DNA of 29,273 bases, from positions 1 to 29,273 of the IMG/VR virus record IMGVR_UViG_3300021962_000469; one strand, given 5' to 3'. The notes under the pieces are model-generated. The model was not told the DNA's origin, did no database searches, and saw nothing but the letters and a program-made list of their open reading frames with translations. Below, one piece after another: positions 8,625-22,287 of this stretch. The number at the start of each line of letters is the position of its first letter. Position 1 is the stretch's first letter. This stretch comes from a virus. A program made the translations under genes and the position numbers.

Positions 8625-8770
8625 GACTTTTTGTTGAAGAGGTCGAACAGGGTCTTGATCTTTTCCTCGACCACCGCCAGCCTGTTATCCATCTTGGCGA
8701 GGAGGATCACGAGGGTCACGAATCCCAGGCCCAAGGGCCAGAGGCGGGATACGATTTCGATGAAGTCCAT
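8621..8770 (-). CDS. Small single-span membrane protein, 49 aa
   Basis: ATG 8770 shares one base with the stop of the 961-aa gene (TAATG) and has a strong GGAGGAATA site. The product begins MDFIEIVSRLWPLGLGFVTL; residues 9-25 form one transmembrane helix, followed by a charged amphipathic helix (KMDNRLAVVEEKIKTLFDLF). This plan, a short N-terminus, one membrane helix and a cytoplasmic or periplasmic coiled segment, is common for small phage membrane proteins near internal virion or lysis genes. It could be a lysis regulator or a hemolysin-XhlA-like factor, but family membership is not certain. Confidence 0.65.
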   Translation of the reverse strand: MDFIEIVSRLWPLGLGFVTLVILLAKMDNRLAVVEEKIKTLFDLFNKKS

Positions 8771-11655
8771 TATTCCTCCCGTAGCCTGCGAGCATACTCG
8801 GGGCGCACGGACTTCGGCACGTCCTCAAGGTTCTGCGGACGACGGTACTCCTGCACCTTCTTGGTGATGCTCTTCTGGAAGGAGTCGGGATCCTGCACGA
8901 TGCGATCCCTGAGGGGCCTGCCCTTGTCATATTGGGCAACCTCTCGCCGCAGGCGCTGGGCTTCCTGCCTGTAGGAGGGATCCCCAGTCTCGATGGCACG
9001 GGCCTGGGCGGTGGCGATGCTGTCAGCATAGGACTTGCGCACTCGGTCCAGGCGCTGGCCCAGATCCTTGGTCTCTTCCTTGGCTTCGCGGGCCTTGGCC
9101 ACCTCGGTGGGGGTGAAGCCCACGGCCACCTTGCCGAAGTCCCGGACGCCCTGCAGCTCCTTGGCGGGGAGTACGGGCTCCATCTTGCCCGGGGTAACAT
9201 AGCCAAGTTCCTGCATGGTGACGGCGCGGGCCACGTTGCGGAAGGCCACGGGCAGCAGGGACGCAAGGGCCATGAGGGGCATGCCCTTCTGCTGGTACTT
9301 GTAGGCTTCCTCGGCACCACCCACCACGGCTCCCATGAGGGGACCCATGTTCATGAGGTCCATGGTGAGCATGTTGTTGAGGTTGAGGTCGAGGGCCGTC
9401 CTCTTGGATATGTCAACACCAAGGGCACGGAAAGGCCCATTGAGCACGTAGTCAGCCAGCTCCGCCGGGGTACCCATGAAGCTTAGGGAGGGTACCTCCT
9501 TGAAGAACTGCTGCATGGTCTCCCGGAGCTGGGACTTCAGAGCCGTGGGGCTCATGCCAAGGTAGGGGCCCACCATGTTGGTGAGCTTGTCGATGAGGTC
9601 CCCGGCAGGTCCAGCGAAGGGCAGGCCCCACAGCCCTGCCGTGGCAAACACCCCCAGGAGCATGAGGCCAAGGACCTTCTTGCCCTCGTCCGTGGACATG
9701 ATGCCCTTGCCACCGTAGTACTCGGCGGCCCGGCGCATGAAGCCCAGCATCTTGAAGGGGAAGGTGGCGAACTGGAAGATGAGGCCCGGGACAAGGCCGT
9801 GCATGTACTGGGCACGGAAGGGCTTCGACATGGAGAACTGGGTTTCCTCCACGGCGAACTTGGCGGCATCCACCCGGTCATTGACCTCCTGCCCCACGTT
9901 CTTGGCGAACTTCTGGAGGCGCTGGAAGGCAGCCTCGTTCTTCGCCATGCGATATGCGGCAAGGGCAGTGCTGAGGCGGTTGATCTGCTCGGCCATGGAG
10001 AAGGGAAGCGAGAAGGCTTCGAGGACCTTGCCTGCCTTCTGGCCCAGACCGTAGACGGATTCGATCTGGGACTGCGCCAGGAGGGAGCCAGCCTGGTCAC
10101 GAGTGAGGAGGGCTTCCGCGTAGCCGCTGCGGAAAAGCTCCTTGATCATTTCCTTCTCGTCCTGGGTGACACCCGACATCTTGTCCACGTCGAGGATCTT
10201 GTCGGGATCCAGTGACAACTTGATGTTGCGCATGATGGTGGTGGTGGCAAGGCTGAGTTCCTTCACCGCATTGCCCGTGCCGCCCACGCCCCCAAGGAAG
10301 GGCACCGTGGTGTGCAGGAGCTGGGTGAGGTTGACCAGCGCAGAGGACAGGTTCCCGCCAAGGGTGTAGAGGAAGGCCACGCTCTTGAGCTTGGCCACGA
10401 GGGCCTCGTTGCTGTGGAGGTACTGCTCCTGCTTCTCCGCGATGATGCGCAGCTTGGGATCCTGGATCTTGGAGATGGCAGCCCGGCGGGTTCCCTCCGT
10501 GGCCTTGTTGGCGATCCAGTCCGTCATCTGGTAGGAGAAGGGCGCGAAGGTACTGCGGAAGTAGGTGTCGTAGTTGTCCTCGCGCAACCATCCGGGGATG
10601 TTATACCTCTTGCGCAGGCGCGGCTGCTTGCGCTTCTCGGCCTCGACCTTGAGCCTCTTGAGGATGTCCGCGATCTGCTTCTGCGGATCATTCTTGTTTG
10701 GCGTCATGATCGCCTGGAAGAGAACGTCGATGCGATCCATCTCGTTGCTGGAGGGCAGGTACAGGTCGTAGAGTTCCTGCTCGGCCTGCAGGTCCCTCAG
10801 CTTGATGGTCTGTACGCCTTCCTTCTTGAGCTGGGCCATGCGCGCCTCGGCCTTGGCGCGGGAACTCTTGAGGGCGGGGAACCTGTCGAGGGCGGGAAGT
10901 CCGTCAGCCAGCACCGAGTCATACGCCTCGATGTGCTTCTGGTCCCCGATGTAGTACTCCACGGCCCATGCACCACGGCGCACCTGCGGGAAGTAGCCCT
11001 TGCGCCTGGCGTTCTCGATGCTGCGCAGCACGGAGGCGGCAGCCATGTTGTCGGCCTTGAGTTTCTGGGTCTCCTCCTCGTTGCGTCCCTGCACAGGGAG
11101 GTTCTCGATGTCGCTGATGGACAGTGACGGATCGAAGCCAAGGGAGGCCTTGACGGAGGAGATCACATTGTCGTAGATGTCGTCAAGGATGACTCGCACC
11201 TCGCGCCGCAGTGCGTTGAGTTCTTTTGGAAGAGTGACGATGTCCCCCGTCTTCGAGCCCACGTGGTCCTCGGTGGCGACGATGGTGGCGCTGCCGTCCG
11301 GGTTCTCCGTGGCCAGGGTCTCCTCGGCGTTCTCGATCTCCAGCATGCGCATCATGTCGCGGGACTGCTTGGAGGAGAGCGCCGCCACCTTGCGCATCAC
11401 GGGCTGGTACTTGTGCCCTAGGCGCGCCCGCAGTTCCTCGCCCAGCTTGAGGGCCTTGACGTAGGGACGCAGGGCCGGGAAGCGCGTGGCCAGGTTGTCG
11501 ATGCTGATGAAGCCACTGAGGTAACGCTGTGCGTTACTCATGAGCTTCAGCAGGGAGGGCTGCAGGTGGCCAGCTTCGATGAGGGAGCGAAGCTCCACCA
11601 CCTTGGCGAGGGTATTGTCGATGACCCCAGAGCGGGCCGGATTGCATACCGTCAT
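8770..11655 (-). CDS. Large internal virion / DNA-ejection protein with PLxRFG-like C-terminal region, 961 aa
   Basis: A long, mostly helical protein lacking a signal peptide. The N-terminal half has helices with many charged residues, ending in the region around RKRYNIPGWLREDNYDTYFR. From about residue 400 the pattern LYTLGGNLSSALVNLTQLLH, SGYAEALLTRDQAGSLLAQS, LPFSMAEQINR, GLIFQFATFPFKMLGFMRRA and the hydrophobic stretch VLGLMLLGVFATAGLWGLPF match the C-terminal segment of very large podovirus internal virion and polyvalent (PLxRFG-type) proteins. Near the end, LGVDISKRTALDLNL and LLPVAFRNVARAV also fit that family. It likely travels in the capsid and helps form the ejection channel with the 1560-aa protein encoded just upstream. 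Role by family resemblance. Confidence 0.68.
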   Translation of the reverse strand: MTVCNPARSGVIDNTLAKVVELRSLIEAGHLQPSLLKLMSNAQRYLSGFISIDNLATRFPALRPYVKALKLGEELRARLGHKYQPVMRKVAALSSKQSRDMMRMLEIENAEETLATENPDGSATIVATEDHVGSKTGDIVTLPKELNALRREVRVILDDIYDNVISSVKASLGFDPSLSISDIENLPVQGRNEEETQKLKADNMAAASVLRSIENARRKGYFPQVRRGAWAVEYYIGDQKHIEAYDSVLADGLPALDRFPALKSSRAKAEARMAQLKKEGVQTIKLRDLQAEQELYDLYLPSSNEMDRIDVLFQAIMTPNKNDPQKQIADILKRLKVEAEKRKQPRLRKRYNIPGWLREDNYDTYFRSTFAPFSYQMTDWIANKATEGTRRAAISKIQDPKLRIIAEKQEQYLHSNEALVAKLKSVAFLYTLGGNLSSALVNLTQLLHTTVPFLGGVGGTGNAVKELSLATTTIMRNIKLSLDPDKILDVDKMSGVTQDEKEMIKELFRSGYAEALLTRDQAGSLLAQSQIESVYGLGQKAGKVLEAFSLPFSMAEQINRLSTALAAYRMAKNEAAFQRLQKFAKNVGQEVNDRVDAAKFAVEETQFSMSKPFRAQYMHGLVPGLIFQFATFPFKMLGFMRRAAEYYGGKGIMSTDEGKKVLGLMLLGVFATAGLWGLPFAGPAGDLIDKLTNMVGPYLGMSPTALKSQLRETMQQFFKEVPSLSFMGTPAELADYVLNGPFRALGVDISKRTALDLNLNNMLTMDLMNMGPLMGAVVGGAEEAYKYQQKGMPLMALASLLPVAFRNVARAVTMQELGYVTPGKMEPVLPAKELQGVRDFGKVAVGFTPTEVAKAREAKEETKDLGQRLDRVRKSYADSIATAQARAIETGDPSYRQEAQRLRREVAQYDKGRPLRDRIVQDPDSFQKSITKKVQEYRRPQNLEDVPKSVRPEYARRLREE

Positions 11656-11658
11656 GGC

Positions 11659-14600
11659 TTACCCACAGGAGATGTCCTTGGTGAACGCCTCGCCGCCTTC
11701 CATCTGGCGGAAGTTGCCCTGCTCCATCACGTTGAGGGCATCGTTCATTTCCCGGGGGATGCCCTCTGGGACAATGAATCGACCTTGGTTCGGAAGTCCT
11801 CCAGCGACTTGCTGCTCCGCAGCAGTTGCAGCGCCTCGGCTGAAGCCAGGGTCCCGTCCGAGTTCCCCTCTTGTCCAAACAGGGTCAAGTGCGTCAGCAA
11901 GGCTTCCTCGCCTAACTGCTTCCATGATGCGGGAGGGTTTGCCCTTGTCGCCTGTCGCAATGCTACTTGCGACATTGCTTGTGTTGGAGTCATTGAATGC
12001 CTCTCTCATCTTGGTGATCATGTTGAAGTTCTTGGCGACAGTGCTTTCAATAGCCCTGCGCAGTGGGTCGTAGTAGCCGTTATCCGCCAAGAATTCTTCC
12101 ATGCTTGCCATGGCCGAAATGAAATTTGCGTCGTGGCTGAATACTTCCACGTGGGCAAGTTCATGCACCATGGTGTTGTAGATGTTGGAAGTGATGCCTT
12201 GGATGGTCTGGCTCTTGGAAGCTACCGGGTTTATGAGCATGGCCTTGAAAGGAACTTTGGAATTCAACCCATAGTATGACGTGTCGAAACCAATGCCCAT
12301 GTAGTATTCGTTGAGTGCATCCTGCAACGTCATGTTGCCATAGTACTTGTTGCCGCCCACTCCTTGAAGAGCCTTGCGCATCTCCATGAAGATGCTGGCA
12401 ATGTCGGTCATGTAGGCTATCGGGTTGCCATGCTGTCTTCCAACTTCCACGAGATCCACGTTGAGGTTGTTGTGGTACAGCGGAGTATTTGTGTCAATCC
12501 CCTTGAGGGGTTCGGTCTGTGCACCGTCAAGAAAATTGTCCAGGTTTTCGGTCTTACCGTTCTTGTCATACGTAACTTGAAACTTGGAGAGCTTTGAATT
12601 GTACGTTACGTCCAGCTTGTCAGGAAGGCCAATCGCGCTGGGAGCCGCAATCGAAGCGGCAGGAATCTTGACGGGGGACTTGTACGTCTTGGGCCCGGCG
12701 GCGAAGGGATCCACCTTGCCGATAGTGTACGTGTTGGCCATCGTGGCCGCAAGATCTTCCGTGCCCTTGGCCTTACCTAGCCGGAAAAATACCAAGTTCA
12801 AAGCCGCCAAGGACTGGGATATACTATCCCTCCAATTCTCTCGAGTGTCGTTGAAGGGGTAATTCTTGTCTCCGGCAACCACCTTTGGCTTCACATCCAA
12901 AATCAAGTTATACGGATACGCAGTGCCGTAGGGGTTCATCTCCGAAGAGCCAAACAACGTATCGAACTGGAAAGCACCACTTGAAAGAACAGTGTGCTTT
13001 CTTCCGTACTTATTAAATTTTCCCGGATAGGAATATTTGTACATGCTCCTATAGATGACAACGTCGCCCCAAGGGAAAGACGCGGTAGTAAATTTCGTGT
13101 AGTCTTGAAACTCAAGGTGCTTTTTGCCAACACCTAAGGTGGGCCCGCCGTTGACGGTTATTTCAAAGTCATACAGGTTTCCACTCTCATCGCTGGCGAT
13201 CCAAGGCTGCATAAGGATAGATTCAACTGAATCCTTGTCAACATCCGTTGGATTGACAGCACCAGTCTGGGAATCGGTCCACGTATCCTTGAGCTTGATG
13301 CTCACCACCGTACCATTCTTCTCCTTAGTAGGAGAAGAGACAGCCCTGATGGACCTGGGCGTACCTTCGGGAACCGTAACCCTTCCAACGGCATCGAGCA
13401 ACTTTGCGCTATCGACTTCCGTGACGGTCTTGACGCCATCCCGTACAGTCTCGATGCGCATGCTTTCCGACATCGTGAACAGGGCCAGCTTGGCGTTGCC
13501 AAAGCCACCACTGCGCATGCCTGGAGGCGTATCCTTCTTGGTCCCGGCGAGAGTGAAGAACGCCTTGAGCAGGACATCACGAGACATGCCGACGCCGTTG
13601 TCCGTGATAGTGAGTGTCCTGTTGGCTTGGTCCACAGCAATGTCGATATTGCCCTTTGTGATCTCGCCTTTGTAGAGAGCTTCCTTCACGGCATCAAAGG
13701 AGTTCTGCAACAGCTCCTTGGTAGCCAGTTTCACAGGACGATTTTCGTAAGTCGTTGCGGCAAACTTTGCAAGGATGAGTTTCGGATCGATGGCAAGATC
13801 AGTCTCTACAACCGTAGAGCTGCGCATCACATCTGGAGATTCGGGAGTGAGGATGTCCGTCGAGTACGAGTAACGCCTGGGAGTATTCTCGAAGCCGCGT
13901 GGAACGATGGTAGCCACGCCGCCTTCGATCTTCTCCACCGTGCCCACCGTGCCATCGGGCACGGACACAACGTCGCCCACCTTGATGTCGCTGGGAGGAG
14001 CCTCTCGCGCCGGTACTCCAGCTTCCTTGGGAGCAGGAGCCTCGGGCGCAACGGGCTCCGGCGTGGGAGGCGTCTCCACGAGAGGGATATCTGCAAAATC
14101 CAGCTCTACAAGGAAAGGTTCAATATTTTTGGTATCCGGGACAGCTTCCAAGACTTCGTCAAAAGTTACATACCCTCGCTTCCTGCCAAGATCTAAGAGG
14201 GTCTTCAAGCGGGGATCGTCCAGCGGGGAAGCCACGGGTGTCGGCGCAGGCGGCTCGACTTGCACCGGAGCAGGTGTCGGAGCAACTTGCGTTGGGGCTG
14301 CCGGGGTAACCTGCGTCGGAGGTTCCGGAGCAACTGGCTGTGCCGGGGCGGGCTGTGTGGCGGGGATGTTCCCCGTGCCGGGCCAGGTGTTGCTGGAGAT
14401 GATGTCGTAGGCTTCCTTGCCCGACATGGCCTCGATGGCGGAGGGCTCGTAGCCCATCGCGAAGAGACGCTGGCGCATCTTGCGATCCACCTGCATCGGC
14501 TCCACGCGCTGCCAGTAGGGGCCCTTCTGTACGACGAGGCCTTCCTGCTCAAGCATCTTGAAGAGCTTGGGCACGGAGGTGGGATCTTGGATCTCCCGGC

Positions 14601-16341
14601 CCAGTGCCTTTTCGAGCCACCGCTTCTGCAGCTTGGTGTCGGGCTTCTCTACGTTGAGGGCCTCGGCCAGCTTGGGATCGCGGCGAACGTCGAAGGCTTC
14701 CTTCTCGGCGTCAGTGGTGAAGCGGAAGAAGGCACCCTTCTGGACCACCTCGCCCTCGGCCACGAGGCGCGCAAGGACTTCCTTGTTCTGCTCCGGGGTG
14801 GTCTGCAGGCCAAGCTCTGCAAGGAACCCAGGAGTGAACATCTGGTTAGCATCCCGCGATCCCTTGTTGGTGGTGGGGATGTTCTCAAGTACCGTGCTGT
14901 AGATCTCGGAGATGGCATCGGGAGCGGGACCCTGCGGGACAGGAGGCGGGGTCTCGTTCATGAACTCGTAGGCGCCGATCTCCGGGATGTCCTTGATGAT
15001 CTCGGGATCTTCGTCCAGGGAGAGCTTGATGTACCGCTCGAACTCCTGGGGGCTCATGTTGACCAGAGCGCCTTCTTCGTCCGTGCTGAGGTTCTGGCGC
15101 ATGGCCAGCTTGCGCTTGATCTTGTCCGTGATGGGAGCCTCGGGACCCAGCAGCTTGTCCGGGTCGTACTCCCGCGCAGCAGCGTAGGCCTCGGGGAGCT
15201 GCACCGCACTGAGGTAGGCGGCGCGCTGGCTCTCGATCTTCTTGGTCTGGGCAGCCCGCTGCTGTGCCGCGATGGCTTCCTGCTCGGCCTTCTGCTCCTC
15301 GGCCTGGCGAACACGATCCTCTTCTGCCTGTGCCGTGCGCCGGGCACCATAGGCACCGGCAGCACCACCCACGGGCGCGGCACCGATACCACCCTTGAGG
15401 GCGGCGTCCACCACCTGCTTCCAGTCAAAGGTCTTGTCCGCGAGGACGTTGACTGCAGCCTGGTCGAGAAGTTCCTGTGCGCCCTCGGTCAGGCCCTCGG
15501 TAGCGGCAGTCTCAAGGGTACCGGCAAGGGCACCGCTCCAGCCCGGCCTGCCCTTCAGCAACTTGGAGGAGATGAGGTTGGTGAGCCTGTCGCCCATCTC
15601 CACGCCCTGCGTCTTGCGCAGCAGCATGACGGGAGCGATGGAGTCGAGGGCACTCTTGAGCGAGCCTACAGCGAAGGCCACGCCGGGGCGCAACTGCTGC
15701 GTCTCGTCGTAGATATTCGCAAAGGACTCGGGTACGTTCTGCAGGCCGGAGCCCAGCATGACACCCGCGACAGTCCCGATCTGCTGGCTCACCTGCTGCA
15801 TCGCTGCGGCGTAGGCAGCTTCCTTGGTGACGGTCTGACCCGCCGCCTGGGCAGCACTCTCGATGGCAGCAGCCCGCGAGGCAACGAGTCCGGTGGCAGC
15901 CCTGCCTGCAGCAAGGCGAGTGCCAGCGGCTCCCAAGCCCACGCCCGGGATGAGTGCCGTAAGCATGGAGGGAAGTGCCTGGCCGAAGGCCTCTGCCCCG
16001 TAGTCGTAGAGGGTGCCTAGGCTGTTGACATCCTCGTAGGACATCTTGGCCTGGAGACCAGCCTTGTCAAGGCGGTCCATGCGCTCCTTGTACGCCTGCA
16101 GGTTTGCCCTTGCAGCATCGTCGTAGCCAAGGGCAGACTGCGCCATGGCCGGGAGGGCCTCGCTGAGAAGACCCTTGGTCTGCTCCCACCCCGTGGCAAG
16201 GCCCTTCGTGAAGGCACCGGGCCCCTCGGGGTTCTTGCTGGGCACCCAGTCCATGCCATCCCACTCGATGACATAGGCGCCCGGAGTGTTCTTGAACGGG
16301 ACGTACTTGCTACCATCCCATTCATACTTGGTGTCGGCCAT
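11659..16341 (-). CDS. Giant multidomain virion protein with GHKL ATPase, zincin and sigma1.1-like segments, 1560 aa
   Basis: N-terminus has twin WDG motifs (YEWDGSKYVPF, IEWDGMDWVPS). Residues about 120-330 are Ala/Gly-rich hydrophobic helices typical of internal virion or polyvalent proteins. Two short repeats share VVQKG (Lys535, Lys606). A Pro-rich linker spans 660-706. Residues 711-753 resemble sigma70 region 1.1. A small barrel follows (IKVGDVVSVPDGTVGTVEKI from 786). Residues about 850-1015 show a GHKL ATPase: KELLQNSFDA (Glu876, Asn880, Asp883), ITDNGVGM (Asp914), SGGFGNAK (944-951) and GTVVSIKL (Gly1010). HELAHVEVFSH at 1393-1403 is an HExxH zincin motif. ATG 16341 follows the previous stop by two bases. 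Most likely packaged and ejected, with enzymatic modules acting in the host or on the virion; which of them are active is unknown. Confidence 0.75.
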   Translation of the reverse strand: MADTKYEWDGSKYVPFKNTPGAYVIEWDGMDWVPSKNPEGPGAFTKGLATGWEQTKGLLSEALPAMAQSALGYDDAARANLQAYKERMDRLDKAGLQAKMSYEDVNSLGTLYDYGAEAFGQALPSMLTALIPGVGLGAAGTRLAAGRAATGLVASRAAAIESAAQAAGQTVTKEAAYAAAMQQVSQQIGTVAGVMLGSGLQNVPESFANIYDETQQLRPGVAFAVGSLKSALDSIAPVMLLRKTQGVEMGDRLTNLISSKLLKGRPGWSGALAGTLETAATEGLTEGAQELLDQAAVNVLADKTFDWKQVVDAALKGGIGAAPVGGAAGAYGARRTAQAEEDRVRQAEEQKAEQEAIAAQQRAAQTKKIESQRAAYLSAVQLPEAYAAAREYDPDKLLGPEAPITDKIKRKLAMRQNLSTDEEGALVNMSPQEFERYIKLSLDEDPEIIKDIPEIGAYEFMNETPPPVPQGPAPDAISEIYSTVLENIPTTNKGSRDANQMFTPGFLAELGLQTTPEQNKEVLARLVAEGEVVQKGAFFRFTTDAEKEAFDVRRDPKLAEALNVEKPDTKLQKRWLEKALGREIQDPTSVPKLFKMLEQEGLVVQKGPYWQRVEPMQVDRKMRQRLFAMGYEPSAIEAMSGKEAYDIISSNTWPGTGNIPATQPAPAQPVAPEPPTQVTPAAPTQVAPTPAPVQVEPPAPTPVASPLDDPRLKTLLDLGRKRGYVTFDEVLEAVPDTKNIEPFLVELDFADIPLVETPPTPEPVAPEAPAPKEAGVPAREAPPSDIKVGDVVSVPDGTVGTVEKIEGGVATIVPRGFENTPRRYSYSTDILTPESPDVMRSSTVVETDLAIDPKLILAKFAATTYENRPVKLATKELLQNSFDAVKEALYKGEITKGNIDIAVDQANRTLTITDNGVGMSRDVLLKAFFTLAGTKKDTPPGMRSGGFGNAKLALFTMSESMRIETVRDGVKTVTEVDSAKLLDAVGRVTVPEGTPRSIRAVSSPTKEKNGTVVSIKLKDTWTDSQTGAVNPTDVDKDSVESILMQPWIASDESGNLYDFEITVNGGPTLGVGKKHLEFQDYTKFTTASFPWGDVVIYRSMYKYSYPGKFNKYGRKHTVLSSGAFQFDTLFGSSEMNPYGTAYPYNLILDVKPKVVAGDKNYPFNDTRENWRDSISQSLAALNLVFFRLGKAKGTEDLAATMANTYTIGKVDPFAAGPKTYKSPVKIPAASIAAPSAIGLPDKLDVTYNSKLSKFQVTYDKNGKTENLDNFLDGAQTEPLKGIDTNTPLYHNNLNVDLVEVGRQHGNPIAYMTDIASIFMEMRKALQGVGGNKYYGNMTLQDALNEYYMGIGFDTSYYGLNSKVPFKAMLINPVASKSQTIQGITSNIYNTMVHELAHVEVFSHDANFISAMASMEEFLADNGYYDPLRRAIESTVAKNFNMITKMREAFNDSNTSNVASSIATGDKGKPSRIMEAVRRGSLADALDPVWTRGELGRDPGFSRGAATAAEQQVAGGLPNQGRFIVPEGIPREMNDALNVMEQGNFRQMEGGEAFTKDISCG

Positions 16342-16343
16342 GG

Positions 16344-17693
16344 TTACCTGGGGAGCATGAGGCTCTGAGGAACGGCAGGTGCCTCCGTGGAGAGACCCAT
16401 CGACTGCATCATGAACTGCATGGCGCGCCGCTCAAGTTCGCGGGCCCGGTCAGGATCCGTGGCGGCAAGGTCCTTGGCCTGCTTCATGAGGGCTGCAGCG
16501 TTGGCAGCGGCAACTCGATCCTGTGCCGTGTCACTGCGCAGCAGGCCCGCGTAGTTGCCGGTCTTGAGGCCGATCTCCAGGGTGGCTCGCGCCAACTCGG
16601 CACTCTCCTGCGGAGTGAGGCGCGCACCGGATTCGCGCTTGCCCTGCAGCTCCGACACCCTGTCGATGACGCCGCTGGACTCAAGGTCACGGAAGATCTG
16701 GGCAGGCTGCCGCGCAAGGTTGGCGTTGAGCGTCGCCTTTGCGATGTCCACGTTGGCGCTCTGCACGAGGACACCGGCCATGGCAACCTTCTGGCTCTGG
16801 GCCGAGAGAGCCTCGCTGGACATGTTGTGGCGCTGCATCTCACGCAGCTTGTCCGTTTCGAGGTTGTAGGTCTTGATGGCCTTGTCGCGGTCGAAGGTGG
16901 AGTTCTCGATGTCGCGCTTGATCCCGGCCATGCGCAGCTTGTCCTCGCGGGACTCCTTGGCCTCTTCCTTCTCGCTGAGGCGCTGCTTCTCGCGCTCTCC
17001 ACGGTACTCCCTGACGCCCTCGGCAACGGGACCGGCGATCTGGCCAAGTGCGCCCTGCCCCAGCTTGGGCTGCGCGGCCAGGATCTTGAGGCCAGTCTCA
17101 AGGAGGGCCATGCCCTGGTCAGCCTTGTACGTGGGCTGGGCCTTGCGCTCCTCGGGAAGCTCCGCCATCACGCGCTTCTTGTACGCCTCCGGGTCCTCGA
17201 ACTTGCCCTGCTGCACGGCAAAGGCGCGACCTCCACCACCCGCACCGGGCTGACCAAGGAAGCGCCGCATGGCATCGACCGTGCTCTCCGGAGGCTGCTC
17301 CCGGTCAGGTGCCGGAGGTGCCGGGGGAGGCGGAGCCGGTGGTTCGGCAACTGCCGGTGACGGAAGGAAAGACCTGAGAGCCCTGCCCGCAATGGCTTCG
17401 GAAGTAAGATCTTCCGCAGAAGGACTGTACTGCGGGGTTTCGGCACGTTCCACCCCTCGCCTCTCAAGATACTGCTCTCGAACGCTTGGAGTAGGAAAAC
17501 CTCCAGCTTCCGGCGGACGCTCAATGATAGCCTGCGGAATACCACCCGGCAAGGTACGCTCAAGCCGACGCATCCGCTCCAGATTGGTAATGTACTCCCT
17601 GCGAGAGGCCGGAAGTCGCAGGTACTCGGGAGTGCTCTTGAACCTCCTGAGTTCATCCGGTCCCATTTCCTCAATGCGCAAGATGTCGGCCAT
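16344..17693 (-). CDS. Internal virion-type coiled-coil protein, 449 aa
   Basis: Chosen ATG 17693 (MADILRIEEMGPDELRRFKS) lies 16 bases after the transglycosylase gene; the frame is open further but that part runs into the neighbour. The first 110 residues are charged and Pro-rich, followed by a proline run (AEPPAPPPPAPPAPD) and a Gly patch (GQPGAGGGGRAF). The remaining 280 residues are a continuous heptad-like helix region (REKQRLSEKEEAKESREDKL and onward) rich in Ala, Arg and Glu. No enzyme motif. Its place between a lytic transglycosylase and the two giant proteins suggests an internal core or ejection-channel protein. Confidence 0.62.
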   Translation of the reverse strand: MADILRIEEMGPDELRRFKSTPEYLRLPASRREYITNLERMRRLERTLPGGIPQAIIERPPEAGGFPTPSVREQYLERRGVERAETPQYSPSAEDLTSEAIAGRALRSFLPSPAVAEPPAPPPPAPPAPDREQPPESTVDAMRRFLGQPGAGGGGRAFAVQQGKFEDPEAYKKRVMAELPEERKAQPTYKADQGMALLETGLKILAAQPKLGQGALGQIAGPVAEGVREYRGEREKQRLSEKEEAKESREDKLRMAGIKRDIENSTFDRDKAIKTYNLETDKLREMQRHNMSSEALSAQSQKVAMAGVLVQSANVDIAKATLNANLARQPAQIFRDLESSGVIDRVSELQGKRESGARLTPQESAELARATLEIGLKTGNYAGLLRSDTAQDRVAAANAAALMKQAKDLAATDPDRARELERRAMQFMMQSMGLSTEAPAVPQSLMLPR

Positions 17694-17709
17694 GTCCGTA
17701 GGTCCTGGG

Positions 17710-18249
17710 TCAGGGGAAAGTCGGGAAGTCCGAGAGGCCTCGGATGAACTCTTCGTGCGGGGGCTGCCCTGCGGCGCTGGACTCACGGGGGCGCGATCCC
17801 AGCTCTTCCATTTCCAGCATGCCTGGGGGAATGGACTTCTCGAACTTGGGGTTCATGCTGTGGACGTACAGCGTATACCGGCGCACCTGCGCGGGAAGAT
17901 TCTCCAGCCACTTGTCACCGTGCGTGGCGATGTGACGGCGCAGGCGCGTAGGTCCCCAGTTGTAGGCGGCGATGCCCTTCAGCTCGTCGTCGAACTGCTC
18001 CTGCAACTTCTTGGCGTAGCCCAGGCCACCAGTGATGTTCTGGTAGGGATTGAAGCGGTCAATCCCCATGACCTTCGAGACCTCGGGACCAAGCTGCATG
18101 GGACCCACGTAGCGGGTGCCCTTGCCTGCCGTGGCCTTGTCCTTCTCGTTGCCGGTCTCTCGATAGTAGATGCCGAAGAGCGACGAGGGGAACTGCCCAC
18201 TCGCCATCGTCTTCTCATAGAACTTGTCGAGTTCTTCGTTCGTGGGCAT
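17710..18249 (-). CDS. Lytic transglycosylase (SLT type), virion-associated, 179 aa
   Basis: A peptidoglycan-cleaving enzyme of the SLT/goose-lysozyme-like fold. Catalytic glutamate is expected at Glu31 in YYRETGN, followed by the GPMQL block (Gly49-Leu53) and the AAYNWGP block (Ala94-Pro100), all in canonical order. No signal peptide is seen. It is encoded among the internal virion proteins rather than with the holin, so it most likely acts at infection, opening the cell wall for DNA ejection, as the N-terminal domain of T7 gp16 does. ATG 18249 overlaps the upstream gene end by one codon. The C-terminal 60 residues are charged, Pro-rich and unlike an enzyme core, perhaps a virion anchoring tail. 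Confidence 0.82.
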   Translation of the reverse strand: MPTNEELDKFYEKTMASGQFPSSLFGIYYRETGNEKDKATAGKGTRYVGPMQLGPEVSKVMGIDRFNPYQNITGGLGYAKKLQEQFDDELKGIAAYNWGPTRLRRHIATHGDKWLENLPAQVRRYTLYVHSMNPKFEKSIPPGMLEMEELGSRPRESSAAGQPPHEEFIRGLSDFPTFP

Positions 18250-18250
18250 C

Positions 18251-19213
18251 TTAGAAAAGGCTCTTGATGCCGCTCCAGACGCTGCTGAGGCCGCTGCTGA
18301 TGGGATTGTAGTAGCTGCCACCCGTGGGAGTGGTGCTGCCAAGAAGGTTGTAGATACCAGCACCAGCCATGCCAAGGCCCGCAGCCGTAGCCAGCGGGGA
18401 AGCCTGCGGGGTGATGGTCTGGCCCGTGGTGGTCGTGGTAGCCTGCGGAGCTACACCACGGAAGATGTTACTGAGGCGCTCGATCTGCCCGAGGTCGTAG
18501 CCCTGGCGACGCATCTCTTCCTGGTAGGCAAGGTCCCGCTGCTGCTGCTCAAGCTGGCGCGGAAGGGCCTGTGCCCCAAGAACGGACTGGAGACCTTGGA
18601 GTCCCATACCCTGCTGCGCTGCACCGAGTTGGCGGAAGAGATCTGCGCCCATGAGCTGGCGCTTGGCCTCCTCACCGAAGAGGTCCGTGGCGCTCTTGAA
18701 GGCCCTCTCCTGCCCGGTGGCCTGGATGTCCGCGAGGCGCTGGCCAAGGTTGCGCTCGGCCTCGGCTTCCTGCACCCCGTAGCGCGCACCACCGAAGGCA
18801 CCCTGTCGGGAGGCCTGGAAGCCCATCTGGGGGCGCAGCTTCTCGTAGTCGCGCACCGCCTCGCGCTTGGCGATGTCGAGCACGTTCTGCGTATAGGGAT
18901 TCATGTACTGCGCAAGATCGATGTCCTGCACACCCCTTGTGCCCATGAAGGCGGAACCCATGCCAGCAGCGAGTCCGGGCTGGTAGGCAAAGGCTGCCTC
19001 GGGAGTGAGGGAGATGGCCTGCTGCTCAACGTCGCTGAGGGGCGCAATGCGCCGCGCCGGGTCGTAGTACTCGTACTCCGGCATGGCCTTGGCGGCGGAC
19101 TCCAGGATGTTGCGCTGGATGTTGGCCGCCCAGTCGGGAAGCTGCGCCGCCGTCACCGTGGTGGTGGGCGTTGACATCGTGGAGCCCTTGGTGAGCGTGT
19201 CCCAAAGTGACAT
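18251..19213 (-). CDS. Internal virion / structural protein, 320 aa
   Basis: Opens MSLWDTLTKGSTMSTPTTTV; the first ATG (19213) is preferred because AGGAT lies seven bases upstream, with an alternative at codon 13. The body shows the pattern QYMNPYTQNVLDIAKREAVR, then RQGAFGGARYGVQEAEAERN and a long Gln-rich helix (LPRQLEQQQRDLAYQEEMRR), which recur in virion proteins of aquatic podoviruses. The C-terminal 60 residues are Thr/Gly-rich with a hydrophobic stretch (ATAAGLGMAGAGIYNLLG). It is the first gene after a candidate promoter at 19240-19268 and heads the internal-protein cluster. Likely an ejected core or tail-channel protein. Confidence 0.68.
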   Translation of the reverse strand: MSLWDTLTKGSTMSTPTTTVTAAQLPDWAANIQRNILESAAKAMPEYEYYDPARRIAPLSDVEQQAISLTPEAAFAYQPGLAAGMGSAFMGTRGVQDIDLAQYMNPYTQNVLDIAKREAVRDYEKLRPQMGFQASRQGAFGGARYGVQEAEAERNLGQRLADIQATGQERAFKSATDLFGEEAKRQLMGADLFRQLGAAQQGMGLQGLQSVLGAQALPRQLEQQQRDLAYQEEMRRQGYDLGQIERLSNIFRGVAPQATTTTTGQTITPQASPLATAAGLGMAGAGIYNLLGSTTPTGGSYYNPISSGLSSVWSGIKSLF

Positions 19214-19268: not shown

Positions 19269-20177
19269 CTAGGTCCGTGCCATGAGGGTTGCGATGTCGT
19301 AGTTCTTGGGAGGCTGCCTCTCGTGCCCGTAGGCCTTCTTGCGGATTGCCTTGCGGATCTCTTCGAGCTTGCGCGCACCTGCCTGATTATTGCCGTCCCC
19401 GAGGGCAGCCACCGTGGCGGCATCGAAGACGAACTCCCCCGAGGAGAGGCGGGCAGGCTGCTTGCCGTCGATGATGGCGGGCACGTCGTCGTCCATGCCA
19501 CCGCTCTTGCCGGGGACGTAGCCCCCACGCGCAAGGTAGGTAGCCGCCACGTTGGGAATTACCCCAAGGAAGGGATTGCTCTGAAGGGCCTGCACCACGG
19601 CAGAGACTCCAGGCCTGTTGGCGTAGGGAGAAAGGCCAGCGTACTGGGAGATGGGAGACCTGTAGATTCCCTGCGGCTCTTGGGCCATGAGTTCTTCGGT
19701 GTTGCCGCCCTTGGTGCCATATTCGTCAACGGCAGGGTCGTCCATGGGAGCAAGTTCGGAAGGTGCAGTCCCCCTTAGGCCAAATGCACCAAGGGCAGAT
19801 TCAATGCCGGAACCAAGTCCCCGTGCAAGGGCGTTGGATGCCATCATGGCCGTGTTGAAACCGGGAACCAGTACGCCGATACTGCGAGCCACGTTCTCAG
19901 GCTTACCGAAGAAAGCATCGATGCGGTCCATGAAGGTACCGGCAGGACCCACGGAGATGTTGCCCGGCTGGCTGAACTGCGCGGGACCAAAATTCTCCGG
20001 CCCCATGGCATACCCTCTCGGGCCAGCTTCAGTTTCAATGGTGCCAGTGTAACTTGTGATGCCGGGGATTCCCCTCTGGGCAGCAGGATGCGCAACTTCG
20101 GATGCCATGCTCCAGCCCCCGTAGTCCGAGGGGGAGGTGTCCGACATGGAGGTGCCTTCGCCTTCGTATCCGCTCAT
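19269..20177 (-). CDS. Structural protein with conserved C-terminal GGYVPG domain, 302 aa
   Basis: The N-terminal two thirds are low-complexity and loop-rich (MSGYEGEGTSMSDTSPSDYG and onward). The C-terminal segment from YLARGGYVPGKSGGMDDDVP through AIIDGKQPARLSSGEFVFDA and AALGDGNNQAGARKLEEIRK is a module found at the end of many phage tail or virion proteins, usually with a GG.V.G.G.G.sDdvpa...GEFV pattern. Function of the module is not known to me. ATG 20177 overlaps the preceding stop as ATGA. Being directly downstream of the nozzle protein points to a tail or head-tail role. Confidence 0.65.
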   Translation of the reverse strand: MSGYEGEGTSMSDTSPSDYGGWSMASEVAHPAAQRGIPGITSYTGTIETEAGPRGYAMGPENFGPAQFSQPGNISVGPAGTFMDRIDAFFGKPENVARSIGVLVPGFNTAMMASNALARGLGSGIESALGAFGLRGTAPSELAPMDDPAVDEYGTKGGNTEELMAQEPQGIYRSPISQYAGLSPYANRPGVSAVVQALQSNPFLGVIPNVAATYLARGGYVPGKSGGMDDDVPAIIDGKQPARLSSGEFVFDAATVAALGDGNNQAGARKLEEIRKAIRKKAYGHERQPPKNYDIATLMART

Positions 20178-20437
20178 GTCTGGTCCACCTTTACGAGTCC
20201 CTTGTCCTGCAGGTCATTGAGGAGCTTCACCACCGTGTAGGCTACTGCAGTGACATTGATGTTACCAAGGTCTATGGTAGCGCTGGTGGGTATTGTACCA
20301 GAAACCGCGTAGCCTGTCACTGCGGGGCCCGTCACCACCTGCCCGTGGTAGAGGTTGAGGACGCGCACCAGCTCGCCCCAACTACGCTGGGCATCCGGGA
20401 GGAGGGATGCGGGGGGAAGGGGAAGGAGGGGCTTCAT
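20174..20437 (-). CDS. Small structural-region protein, 87 aa
   Basis: ATG 20437 overlaps the preceding gene's stop as ATGA, with a G-rich stretch downstream rather than a clear upstream site. The product opens MKPLLPLPPASLLPDAQRSW, followed by a helix (GELVRVLNLYHGQVVTG), a beta stretch (YAVSGTIPTSATIDLGNINV) and a helix with LLNDLQDKGLVKVD. Nothing identifies an enzyme or membrane protein. Similar small proteins with a conserved INVTAVAYTV-like strand often follow the nozzle gene in podoviruses; a tail accessory role is inferred. Confidence 0.6.
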   Translation of the reverse strand: MKPLLPLPPASLLPDAQRSWGELVRVLNLYHGQVVTGPAVTGYAVSGTIPTSATIDLGNINVTAVAYTVVKLLNDLQDKGLVKVDQT

Positions 20438-22287
20438 CGCTGGCCGTCCGGCGCGAGGCGGAAGCGCAGGGCACCAAGGCGCCACGAGGTGTCGAGGCCA
20501 TCCCCATCTATGCGGTAGTAGGAGTGGCGCCCCCGGATGCGCAGGTCGATCTTCTGGGTGTGGGCAGAGACCGTGAAGGGCCCCTTGGTGATCTCTTGGG
20601 AGACGGGGGTGTTGGGATACTTGAGGGTGTGCACCGTCATGTAGATGTTGCCGGGCATCGGATCCCCGTTGCGATCAGAGAAGTCGGGGATGATGCGATC
20701 AACGAACATCAGCTCTTGGCCCGCATCAAGGTCGAAGAGATTGCTCTCGATGTAGGAGGGAAGGGCCTGCCCGTCAGCGTCGTTGCCGTATTCGTGGTAG
20801 TACAACTTGGTAGCCGAAGAGGCCACGCCCGCCGCGATGGGGTAGGTGGCAATCCCCTGGTCGATCCAAGCGGTGCGCACCATGCTGCCGATGCTCCACG
20901 TATTCTCCAAGTAGTTGAAGATGACGTAGCGATCTACTTCCCCGGAGGTGGTGGGGTAGAACCAGATGATCTCGTTGTAGGAGGTGTTGCTCCCGCACAC
21001 GATCTTGTCAAGCTGGGTGCGATCAAGGGCCTCGAAGACGTAGCGCAGCACGTCGCACTTGAGGGGCTGGGCGGCGGCACCATCATAGACCATGAAGCGT
21101 TCATCGGCCATCCAGAAGGTACGGCCACCCACCTCCACCATGGCGTTCTGCCCCAGCACGCCGCAGTTGGTACCAATCAATTGGAACCCAAAGGTGTAGG
21201 GCGGGCCCACCTGCTGCATGCTGTAGAGGTTCTCGTCGGTCCATATGAGGATCTGGCCACGGGTGCGCCGCGCCGCCACGATGCGGGAGGCGCCTGAGAG
21301 GATCTTGTCACCCGCCGTGTTGGTGGCGCTGGCCGTCCAGTCGTTGATGTCCTCTTGGTTGCACCACCTGATGTAGAGGGGGTTGACAACCGAGGTGAGG
21401 GCGTCGGGGCACCCGAAGGAGATGAGATGGCGATCTTCGGGGCTGACGAGGATCTGGGTATTCTGTGAGGGCGACGCGGTAACCTGATAGGCCCTCTTGG
21501 CGGTACCTTGGGAGGAATCCCAATAGTAGATGCCGTTGTTGCGGGGGCTGGCAACGAGGTCCTCGCCCCAGTTGTCCATGCTCCAGTAGCGCAGCGGGGC
21601 CACGAAGGCGGAAGAGGCGGGAGTGCCCCAGCCTTGGCCACCGCTCCACACACCTGCACCCCACCCGAAATTGGGGGCGTTGCTGGCGAAGCCTGAGGGG
21701 TGGAGGAAGAAGCCGGTTGCGAGGCCCCCGCCCGAAGCAGAGGTGGCTGCGGCGGTGACCCCCGTGTTGATGGTGAAGGAGTTGGCGTCCACCACCGTGA
21801 TCTCGAAGCCCCCAAGGGGAGCCGACACGGGGTAGACGTTTCCCCCAACGGTGGTTGCCACGGAAGTGAAGTAGAAGTAGTCGCCCGTGGAGTGGCCGTG
21901 GGCCGACACGGAGACGGTGATGAGGGTGGAGCCCGCCGAGGTGCTGATGATGTCGGAGGCCGACACGGAGGTATCGACGGGGGTGATGTCGTAGTACTTG
22001 CCCCCGTCCCACACCATGAGGTGGGAGTTGGTGCCTACCGCAAGGTAGGTGGTGCCCGCAAGGTTGACCCACGTGAAGAGGGAGCGGCCCACGCCGGGAA
22101 CCTCTACGCTATCCCCCACGCCGTTGATGTTTTGCCAGCCTCCGATCTTCTCGGGCTGGCCGAAGCGGAAGCGCACCTTGTCCCCGTCGTACCAGCCGCC
22201 CTCGCCCGCATAGCGTGTCAGTTCGCGGTTGATGCCAGCCTTGGCACCTACTGAGCTGAGGCGGGGATTGGGGATGCCGTCAGCCAC
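20434..22287 (-). CDS. Tail nozzle / tubular protein B-like virion protein, 617 aa
   Basis: Opens with MADGIPNPRLSSVGAKAGIN and GGWYDGDKVRFRFGQPEKIG, the start seen in many podovirus proteins annotated as tail nozzle, tail tubular protein B or P22 gp10-like stabilisation protein. The rest is beta-rich, with repeated blades such as LFTWVNLAGTTYLAVGTNSH and a middle block with WCNQEDINDWTASATNTAGD and ILIWTDENLYSMQQVGPPY. The last part carries RIRGRHSYYRIDG. A beta-propeller tail nozzle is the best reading. Start is GTG 22287, eight bases inside the holin-like gene. Neighbouring adaptor and fibre genes support a tail-tip role. Confidence 0.75.
   Translation of the reverse strand: MADGIPNPRLSSVGAKAGINRELTRYAGEGGWYDGDKVRFRFGQPEKIGGWQNINGVGDSVEVPGVGRSLFTWVNLAGTTYLAVGTNSHLMVWDGGKYYDITPVDTSVSASDIISTSAGSTLITVSVSAHGHSTGDYFYFTSVATTVGGNVYPVSAPLGGFEITVVDANSFTINTGVTAAATSASGGGLATGFFLHPSGFASNAPNFGWGAGVWSGGQGWGTPASSAFVAPLRYWSMDNWGEDLVASPRNNGIYYWDSSQGTAKRAYQVTASPSQNTQILVSPEDRHLISFGCPDALTSVVNPLYIRWCNQEDINDWTASATNTAGDKILSGASRIVAARRTRGQILIWTDENLYSMQQVGPPYTFGFQLIGTNCGVLGQNAMVEVGGRTFWMADERFMVYDGAAAQPLKCDVLRYVFEALDRTQLDKIVCGSNTSYNEIIWFYPTTSGEVDRYVIFNYLENTWSIGSMVRTAWIDQGIATYPIAAGVASSATKLYYHEYGNDADGQALPSYIESNLFDLDAGQELMFVDRIIPDFSDRNGDPMPGNIYMTVHTLKYPNTPVSQEITKGPFTVSAHTQKIDLRIRGRHSYYRIDGDGLDTSWRLGALRFRLAPDGQR

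Follow-up and report, generated by a model that had tools for sequence, protein, structure and literature searches.

A GHKL ATPase joined to a predicted zinc metalloprotease in a putative polyvalent ejection protein from a viral genome fragment

The giant protein P0002, encoded in a viral genome fragment, carries a GHKL ATPase domain, a transducer and a zincin that together make up one conserved module of ~590 aa. The sequence studied (hereafter the window) was a 29,273-nt fragment of IMGVR_UViG_3300021962_000469, in which P0002 is a 1560-aa ORF; all but one of the module relatives came from metagenomic viral contigs. The best explanation of the whole, in which we place about even confidence, is that P0002 is a polyvalent ejection protein with an ATPase-driven zincin cargo acting in the host. 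The features of the gene are as follows.

11659..16341, minus strand: P0002, consisting of an N-terminal leader, a linker, a GHKL/transducer/zincin cargo and a short C-terminal tag (ORF and translation)
15247..16224, minus strand: N-terminal leader, residues 40–365, hydrophobic and glycine-rich, common to giant ORFs with other cargo (alignment)
14065..14214, minus strand: sigma70 region 1.1-like segment, residues 710–759 (Pfam PF03979, 1.1e-6, above cut-off; RpoD 2k6x, 0.002)
13282..13776, minus strand: GHKL (Bergerat) ATPase domain, about residues 856–1020 (Pfam, AF2 model, Hsp90/TRAP1 Z 20.7, invariant residues)
12622..13281, minus strand: Hsp90/rIIA-type transducer plus linker, about residues 1021–1240 (structural alignment with the Hsp90 N+M domains)
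12838..12861, minus strand: YPFNDTRE catalytic-arginine loop, residues 1161–1168 (R1167 in 59/59; HHalign with HtpG LPLNVSRE)
11977..12495, minus strand: WLM/Wss1-like zinc metalloprotease domain, residues 1283–1455 (AF2 pLDDT 89; Wss1 Z 8.7)
12151..12165, minus strand: HELAH zinc site, residues 1393–1397 (HExxH in 59/59; third ligand H1403 at 12133–12135)
11662..11697, minus strand: C-terminal tag GGEAFTKDISCG, the last twelve residues, which stays when the cargo swaps (GGEAFAEDISCG in locus L003) (alignment)

The initial annotation had recognized four GHKL blocks in P0002, and all of them lie at the residues given there, namely ELLQNSFDA at 876–884 (13690–13716), TDNGVGM at 913–919 (13585–13605), SGGFGNAK at 944–951 (13489–13512) and GTVVSI at 1010–1015 (13297–13314). 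A Bergerat-fold ATPase was borne out by both profile and predicted structure: Pfam HATPase_c_3 matched residues 872–1011 (E 5.1e-11; 43.2 bits, cut-off 25), and the model, with its Bergerat pocket, aligned with ATP-bound Hsp90/GyrB structures. The features of the class are present (N-box E..N..D, G1 DxGxG, lid glycines, GT strand and Bergerat fold), and, judged by sequence, the motif lies far beyond chance. The AlphaFold2 model of the module, made from a 23-sequence alignment, had a mean pLDDT of 82.5 and was closest in VIA-align to closed Hsp90/TRAP1 (Z 20.7, 298 residues, 4.7 Å), with GyrB and ParE just behind. The Hsp90 N+M domains aligned structurally with module residues 1–430, and the ATPase domain exceeded its previously proposed extent, running on into the transducer to about residue 1240. 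A profile of the module family searched against the PDB found HtpG at 1.5e-10, and NCBIfam gave weak partial matches of P0002 to HSP90, HtpG, topoisomerase VI B and MutL. YPFNDTRE, containing R1167, was paired by HHalign (98%, 1e-13) with LPLNVSRE of HtpG, a loop known to hold the Hsp90 catalytic arginine. The GHKL domain is predicted to bind and hydrolyse ATP.

The reading of an ATPase in an ejection-cassette protein stood up; what it had overlooked is a fused zinc protease, which alters the likely function. HExxH, a third zinc ligand and a zincin fold, the features of the zincin class, are all present in P0002. A model of the zincin only, built from 49 sequences, reached a pLDDT of 89, and its best match among solved structures was Wss1 (Z 8.7, 105 residues, 2.6 Å); Foldseek alone gave a weak result (E 0.5), and the match to Pfam WLM (7e-5, 23.4 bits) fell under the cut-off of 26. 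Because these scores are weak, yet the zinc site is clear, we call the domain WLM/Wss1-like only. MPTase-PolyVal (Pfam PF18818) gave a weak match in one of the 49 module zincins (E 0.07).

Scans of viral contigs with the module, together with one MAG contig, yielded 84 ORFs (the E-values of these contig scans refer to candidate stretches), and removal of copies >90% identical left 60 non-redundant module sequences. Seeds located between the two active sites, and so excluding the N-box, fetched 73 loci, and HExxH lay outside every search seed. In the scans seeded with QNSFDAV the heptapeptide appears invariant by construction; with the other seeds S881 was alanine in about half of the sequences, and E, N and D were still invariant. 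The module profile matched 84/84 ORFs, and GHKL and zincin were both present in all but two, these two ORFs, which do not have both module ends, being truncated at a contig end or interrupted by a frame break. E876, N880 and D883 were kept in all 58 non-redundant sequences covering the column, as were D914, K951, R1167 and HExxH in all 59. The third zinc ligand was histidine in 53/59 and glutamate in six, a subset among loci L112, L113 and L119–L123; this natural swap of ligand supports a working zinc site, and protease activity is predicted for P0002.

The spacing between GHKL and zincin was near-constant over the 60 divergent copies, although their architectures otherwise differ and the complete module-bearing ORFs (n=72) span 812–5371 aa, with a median near 2872. 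Compared with the L002/L006 homologue, dN/dS was 0.098 in the GHKL domain, 0.20 in the transducer and 0.11 in the zincin. The module is therefore under strong purifying selection, and the pairing of its two enzymes is obligate in the family. Given the strict pairing, the spacing and the intact sites, ATPase and protease probably act jointly, a coupling suggested by their co-occurrence.

The viral protein A0A516L4L2 in BFVD, a deposited member unnamed in the tables used, matched over the full module with a TM of 0.73. Among 50,697 phage records no relative was found of whole P0002, nor of the whole module of a relative used as query, and the GHKL part from the window matched only rIIA-type or similar proteins there. 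A bacterial origin was considered and rejected: the profile matched in 68 of 369 bacterial genomes, but, one MAG apart, the best places listed covered only the GHKL part, in frames of 610–750 aa, three of which were inspected and were HtpG. The sole contig of these genomes with the dyad belongs to a Neisseriaceae MAG (L034; G001 contig 54), where it is broken into two frames of 379 and 419 aa and is possibly a prophage or contaminating phage. Two further candidates were set aside, a Pseudanabaena plasmid match, which was HtpG-like and had no protease, and the restriction-enzyme GHKL families (BbrUII, PADLOC REase_II), with weak matches to the GHKL part only. The open literature searched yielded no description of a GHKL–zincin fusion.

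P0002 had also been placed with the ejection proteins, and the neighbouring genes agree.

8770..11655, minus strand: P0003, 961 aa, C-terminal DarB/PLxRFG polyvalent tail as a separate gene (NCBIfam NF032893, 4e-52)
16344..17786, minus strand: P0004, 480 aa, upstream neighbour, to which the JC1 virion protein gp68 in this slot is alike by size and position only (ORF)
18251..19213, minus strand: P0007, 320 aa, DNA ejection protein family (phrog_4287, 5e-18)
19269..20177, minus strand: P0012, 302 aa, weakly tape-measure-like conserved neighbour (PHROGs 6e-4; synteny)
20434..22287, minus strand: P0008, 617 aa, virion structural/stabilization protein (phrog_3287, 1e-79; synteny)

P0007, of the phrog_4287 family, lies two genes upstream of P0002. 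At least one of P0008, P0012 and P0007 was detected in 28/60 loci, and in 28/28 they were upstream on the same strand and in the same order, that is structural protein, P0012, ejection protein and giant ORF; most of the other 32 loci hold little upstream DNA. The P0007 counterparts in L069 and L095 also match phrog_4287. Elsewhere in the window, P0005 (5663–7939, minus strand) has a glycosyltransferase-like N-terminus followed by Methyltransf_24 and MptE-like domains (Pfam), and the adjoining P0006 is phrog_28018.

Pfam analysis of 11 diverse module ORFs found LPD38 in four, ART-PolyVal in three, with C5 methylase, SLT transglycosylase and ddrB-ParB once each, and other module-bearing ORFs contained LPD39, SAP and GNAT. 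LPD38, LPD39, ART-PolyVal and ddrB-ParB are polyvalent-protein domains (PMC5512222), and P0002 has what marks a polyvalent protein, a large multidomain chain with class-typical domains in its homologues. A profile built from the C-terminal ends of giant ORFs that have the leader matched residues 205–934 of P0003 (4e-43), whose tail is DarB-like (PHROG DarB match), as well as many tails among the ORFs with the module. When P0003 itself was compared with the module-bearing ORFs by phmmer, it matched only its close homologue. P0002 and P0003 are three bases apart, and the shared tail profile indicates that the two correspond to one polypeptide elsewhere, for example in L089 (2888 aa). Phage F116 (L215, 10151–21512) likewise has two adjacent giant genes, one annotated as a methyltransferase and one with a P0003-like tail; splitting of the polyvalent protein may be common. 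In the JC1 report (PMC9144972), MS of CsCl-purified virions detected a DarB-like 4515-aa protein with neighbours of similar size and order, as well as gp68. From homology, synteny and this virion proteomics, we infer that P0002 would be packaged in the virion and delivered into the host with the DNA.

The homologue in L003, P0015, is 95% identical with P0002 over residues 1–660 and keeps the C-terminal tag, and has unrelated sequence in place of the GHKL–zincin block; the L002 homologue retains the block, with an additional insert. Of the complete ORFs that share the N-terminal leader (n=59), only six carried the module. Its replacement in L003 and its presence in so few leader-bearing ORFs show that the block is exchangeable cargo and not ejection machinery; it is probably one among several cargoes that can replace each other in a polyvalent protein of the ejection class. 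The replacement cargo of P0015 gave no relatives by search and no Pfam name beyond a sigma-1.1 segment; within it (L003:12290–14122) a HSHPDNTSFSKGD stretch, without a Pfam match, resembles a JAMM/JAB metal site. The sigma-1.1-like segment sits in the linker between leader and cargo and is stronger in P0015 residues 709–763 (Pfam 1.3e-14; RpoD chains); once injected, such a region 1.1 fragment could affect the RNA polymerase of the host. Synonymous divergence between P0002 and L002/L006 was 0.13 in the last 105 codons (11662–11976, minus strand) and 0.6–1.0 elsewhere, and these codons, which adjoin the cargo boundary, look as if recently recombined.

Starting from what the computation shows (the two folds, the preserved catalytic residues, their obligate pairing under purifying selection, the cassette position and the cargo swapping), we propose that P0002 would be the front half, and P0003 the tail half, of a podovirus ejection-cassette polyvalent protein, in which the leader would be the shared part and the GHKL–transducer–zincin block the interchangeable cargo. 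In the host after ejection, the GHKL domain would bind ATP and dimerize as Hsp90/rIIA do, by closure of a lid; the transducer and catalytic arginine would relay the clamp movement to the fused zinc protease. ATP-driven clamp closure would then gate or feed the protease in the host cytoplasm and restrict its action to places that contain ATP. The protease may cut the polyvalent protein itself into working parts, or it may cut a host protein; self-cutting is proposed for polyvalent zincins in general in PMC5512222. Against this explanation, the nearest virion proteomics comes from JC1, a phage without a demonstrated module copy, and other polyvalent zincins work, or are thought to, without a GHKL partner.

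A more specific form of the proposal, which we hold only tentatively and would sooner doubt than believe, is a switch thrown on arrival: the protein would be inactive in the ATP-free virion, and its clamp would close on cytoplasmic ATP and then free the injected protein or cut host proteins. If true, this would add a new principle to the regulation of injected phage proteins, along with a new class of Hsp90–protease fusion. Release or activation of polyvalent proteins is commonly ascribed to their zincins, and the GHKL–zincin fusion would offer a concrete timing switch, ATP on entry. The rIIA-type GHKL ATPases, long puzzling, would gain a relative whose enzymatic partner is defined, and the pairs with swapped cargo show how phages exchange injected effectors.

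It is also conceivable, but rather unlikely, that P0002 is an rIIA-like counter-defence effector, its GHKL domain sensing or disarming a host defence and its protease destroying a defence protein. The GHKL domain is similar to rIIA of Schitoviridae, RIIA was the largest named group among the viral fold matches, a counter-defence role of rIIA is discussed in PMC7824862, and cargo swapping between close phages is as expected for arms-race genes. However, no rIIB neighbour was seen among the annotated window genes, rIIA is encoded by a gene of its own and differs at the C-terminus, and no target is known; moreover, a dN/dS of about 0.1 and a spread over 60 copies suggest a general target, not a narrowly escaping one.

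Hsp90, TRAP1 and HtpG being the nearest solved folds, the Hsp90-like part could instead refold ejected proteins in the host while the protease trims or removes failures; N4 vRNAP, likewise giant and ejected, is proposed to unfold and refold (PMC12633501). We consider this improbable, since the zincin stands in place of the Hsp90 C-terminal dimerization domain, and 53/59 leader-bearing ORFs are without the module, so that refolding cannot depend on it. We give equally little credence to a zincin that only processes the polyprotein while virions assemble, ahead of packaging, next to a GHKL domain that is a separate, uncoupled effector; PMC5512222 proposes that polyvalent zincins carry out autoproteolysis prior to packaging. 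Strict pairing and near-constant spacing over 60 divergent copies argue for coupling instead. Remodelling of the virion or driving of ejection by the ATPase, the second option of the initial annotation, would suit the position within the ejection cassette but is highly improbable, as the module is missing from close relatives that keep all the neighbouring genes, is replaced in the phage with 95% identity over the first 660 residues and is lacking in those same 53 leader-bearing ORFs, and as ATP is, to our knowledge, not expected in the virion.

A polyvalent ejection protein with an ATPase-driven zincin cargo, the explanation that we favour, can be set beside several known systems. With the polyvalent proteins (Iyer et al. 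2017, PMC5512222; DarB, N4-type vRNAP) P0002 shares giant size, multidomain and modular build, a link to ejection and a zincin, and its relatives share LPD38, LPD39, ART-PolyVal and ddrB-ParB. The module zincin is WLM-like, however, with a match to MPTase-PolyVal in only one of 49 members, and in the main text of that paper HSP90, GHKL, histidine kinase and gyrase are absent, with MutL and MORC appearing in its references only. JC1 gp69/Bcep22 DarB-like virion protein is similarly the giant last gene of a structural module after virion proteins of similar size, has a tail related to P0003 and was found in virions by MS; the accessible text of PMC9144972 names no GHKL domain for JC1, where a single 4515-aa gene stands against two genes in the window.

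The T4/N4 rIIA proteins, too, are GHKL ATPases of phages and have a lid of the GGFG type; for N4 rIIA, HHalign gave 96% across the GHKL part. The sequence relation to rIIA thus holds for the GHKL domain but the gene context does not: rIIA lies beside rIIB, whereas here the domain is inside a 1560-aa ORF between P0004 and P0003. HtpG/Hsp90/TRAP1 have the same GHKL and middle domain with a catalytic arginine loop, but the module lacks their C-terminal dimerization domain, having the HExxH domain in its place, and is therefore not filed as Hsp90. Wss1/SPRTN (WLM/SprT) DNA–protein crosslink proteases share HExxH with a third histidine five residues on; the module differs in its weak sequence similarity, extra helical C-terminus, glutamate as third ligand in 6/59, and in showing no sign of action on DNA-bound proteins. 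Polyvalent proteins with zincins were already known; the literature searched gave no account of a pairing of GHKL and zincin in a polyvalent protein of the injected type.
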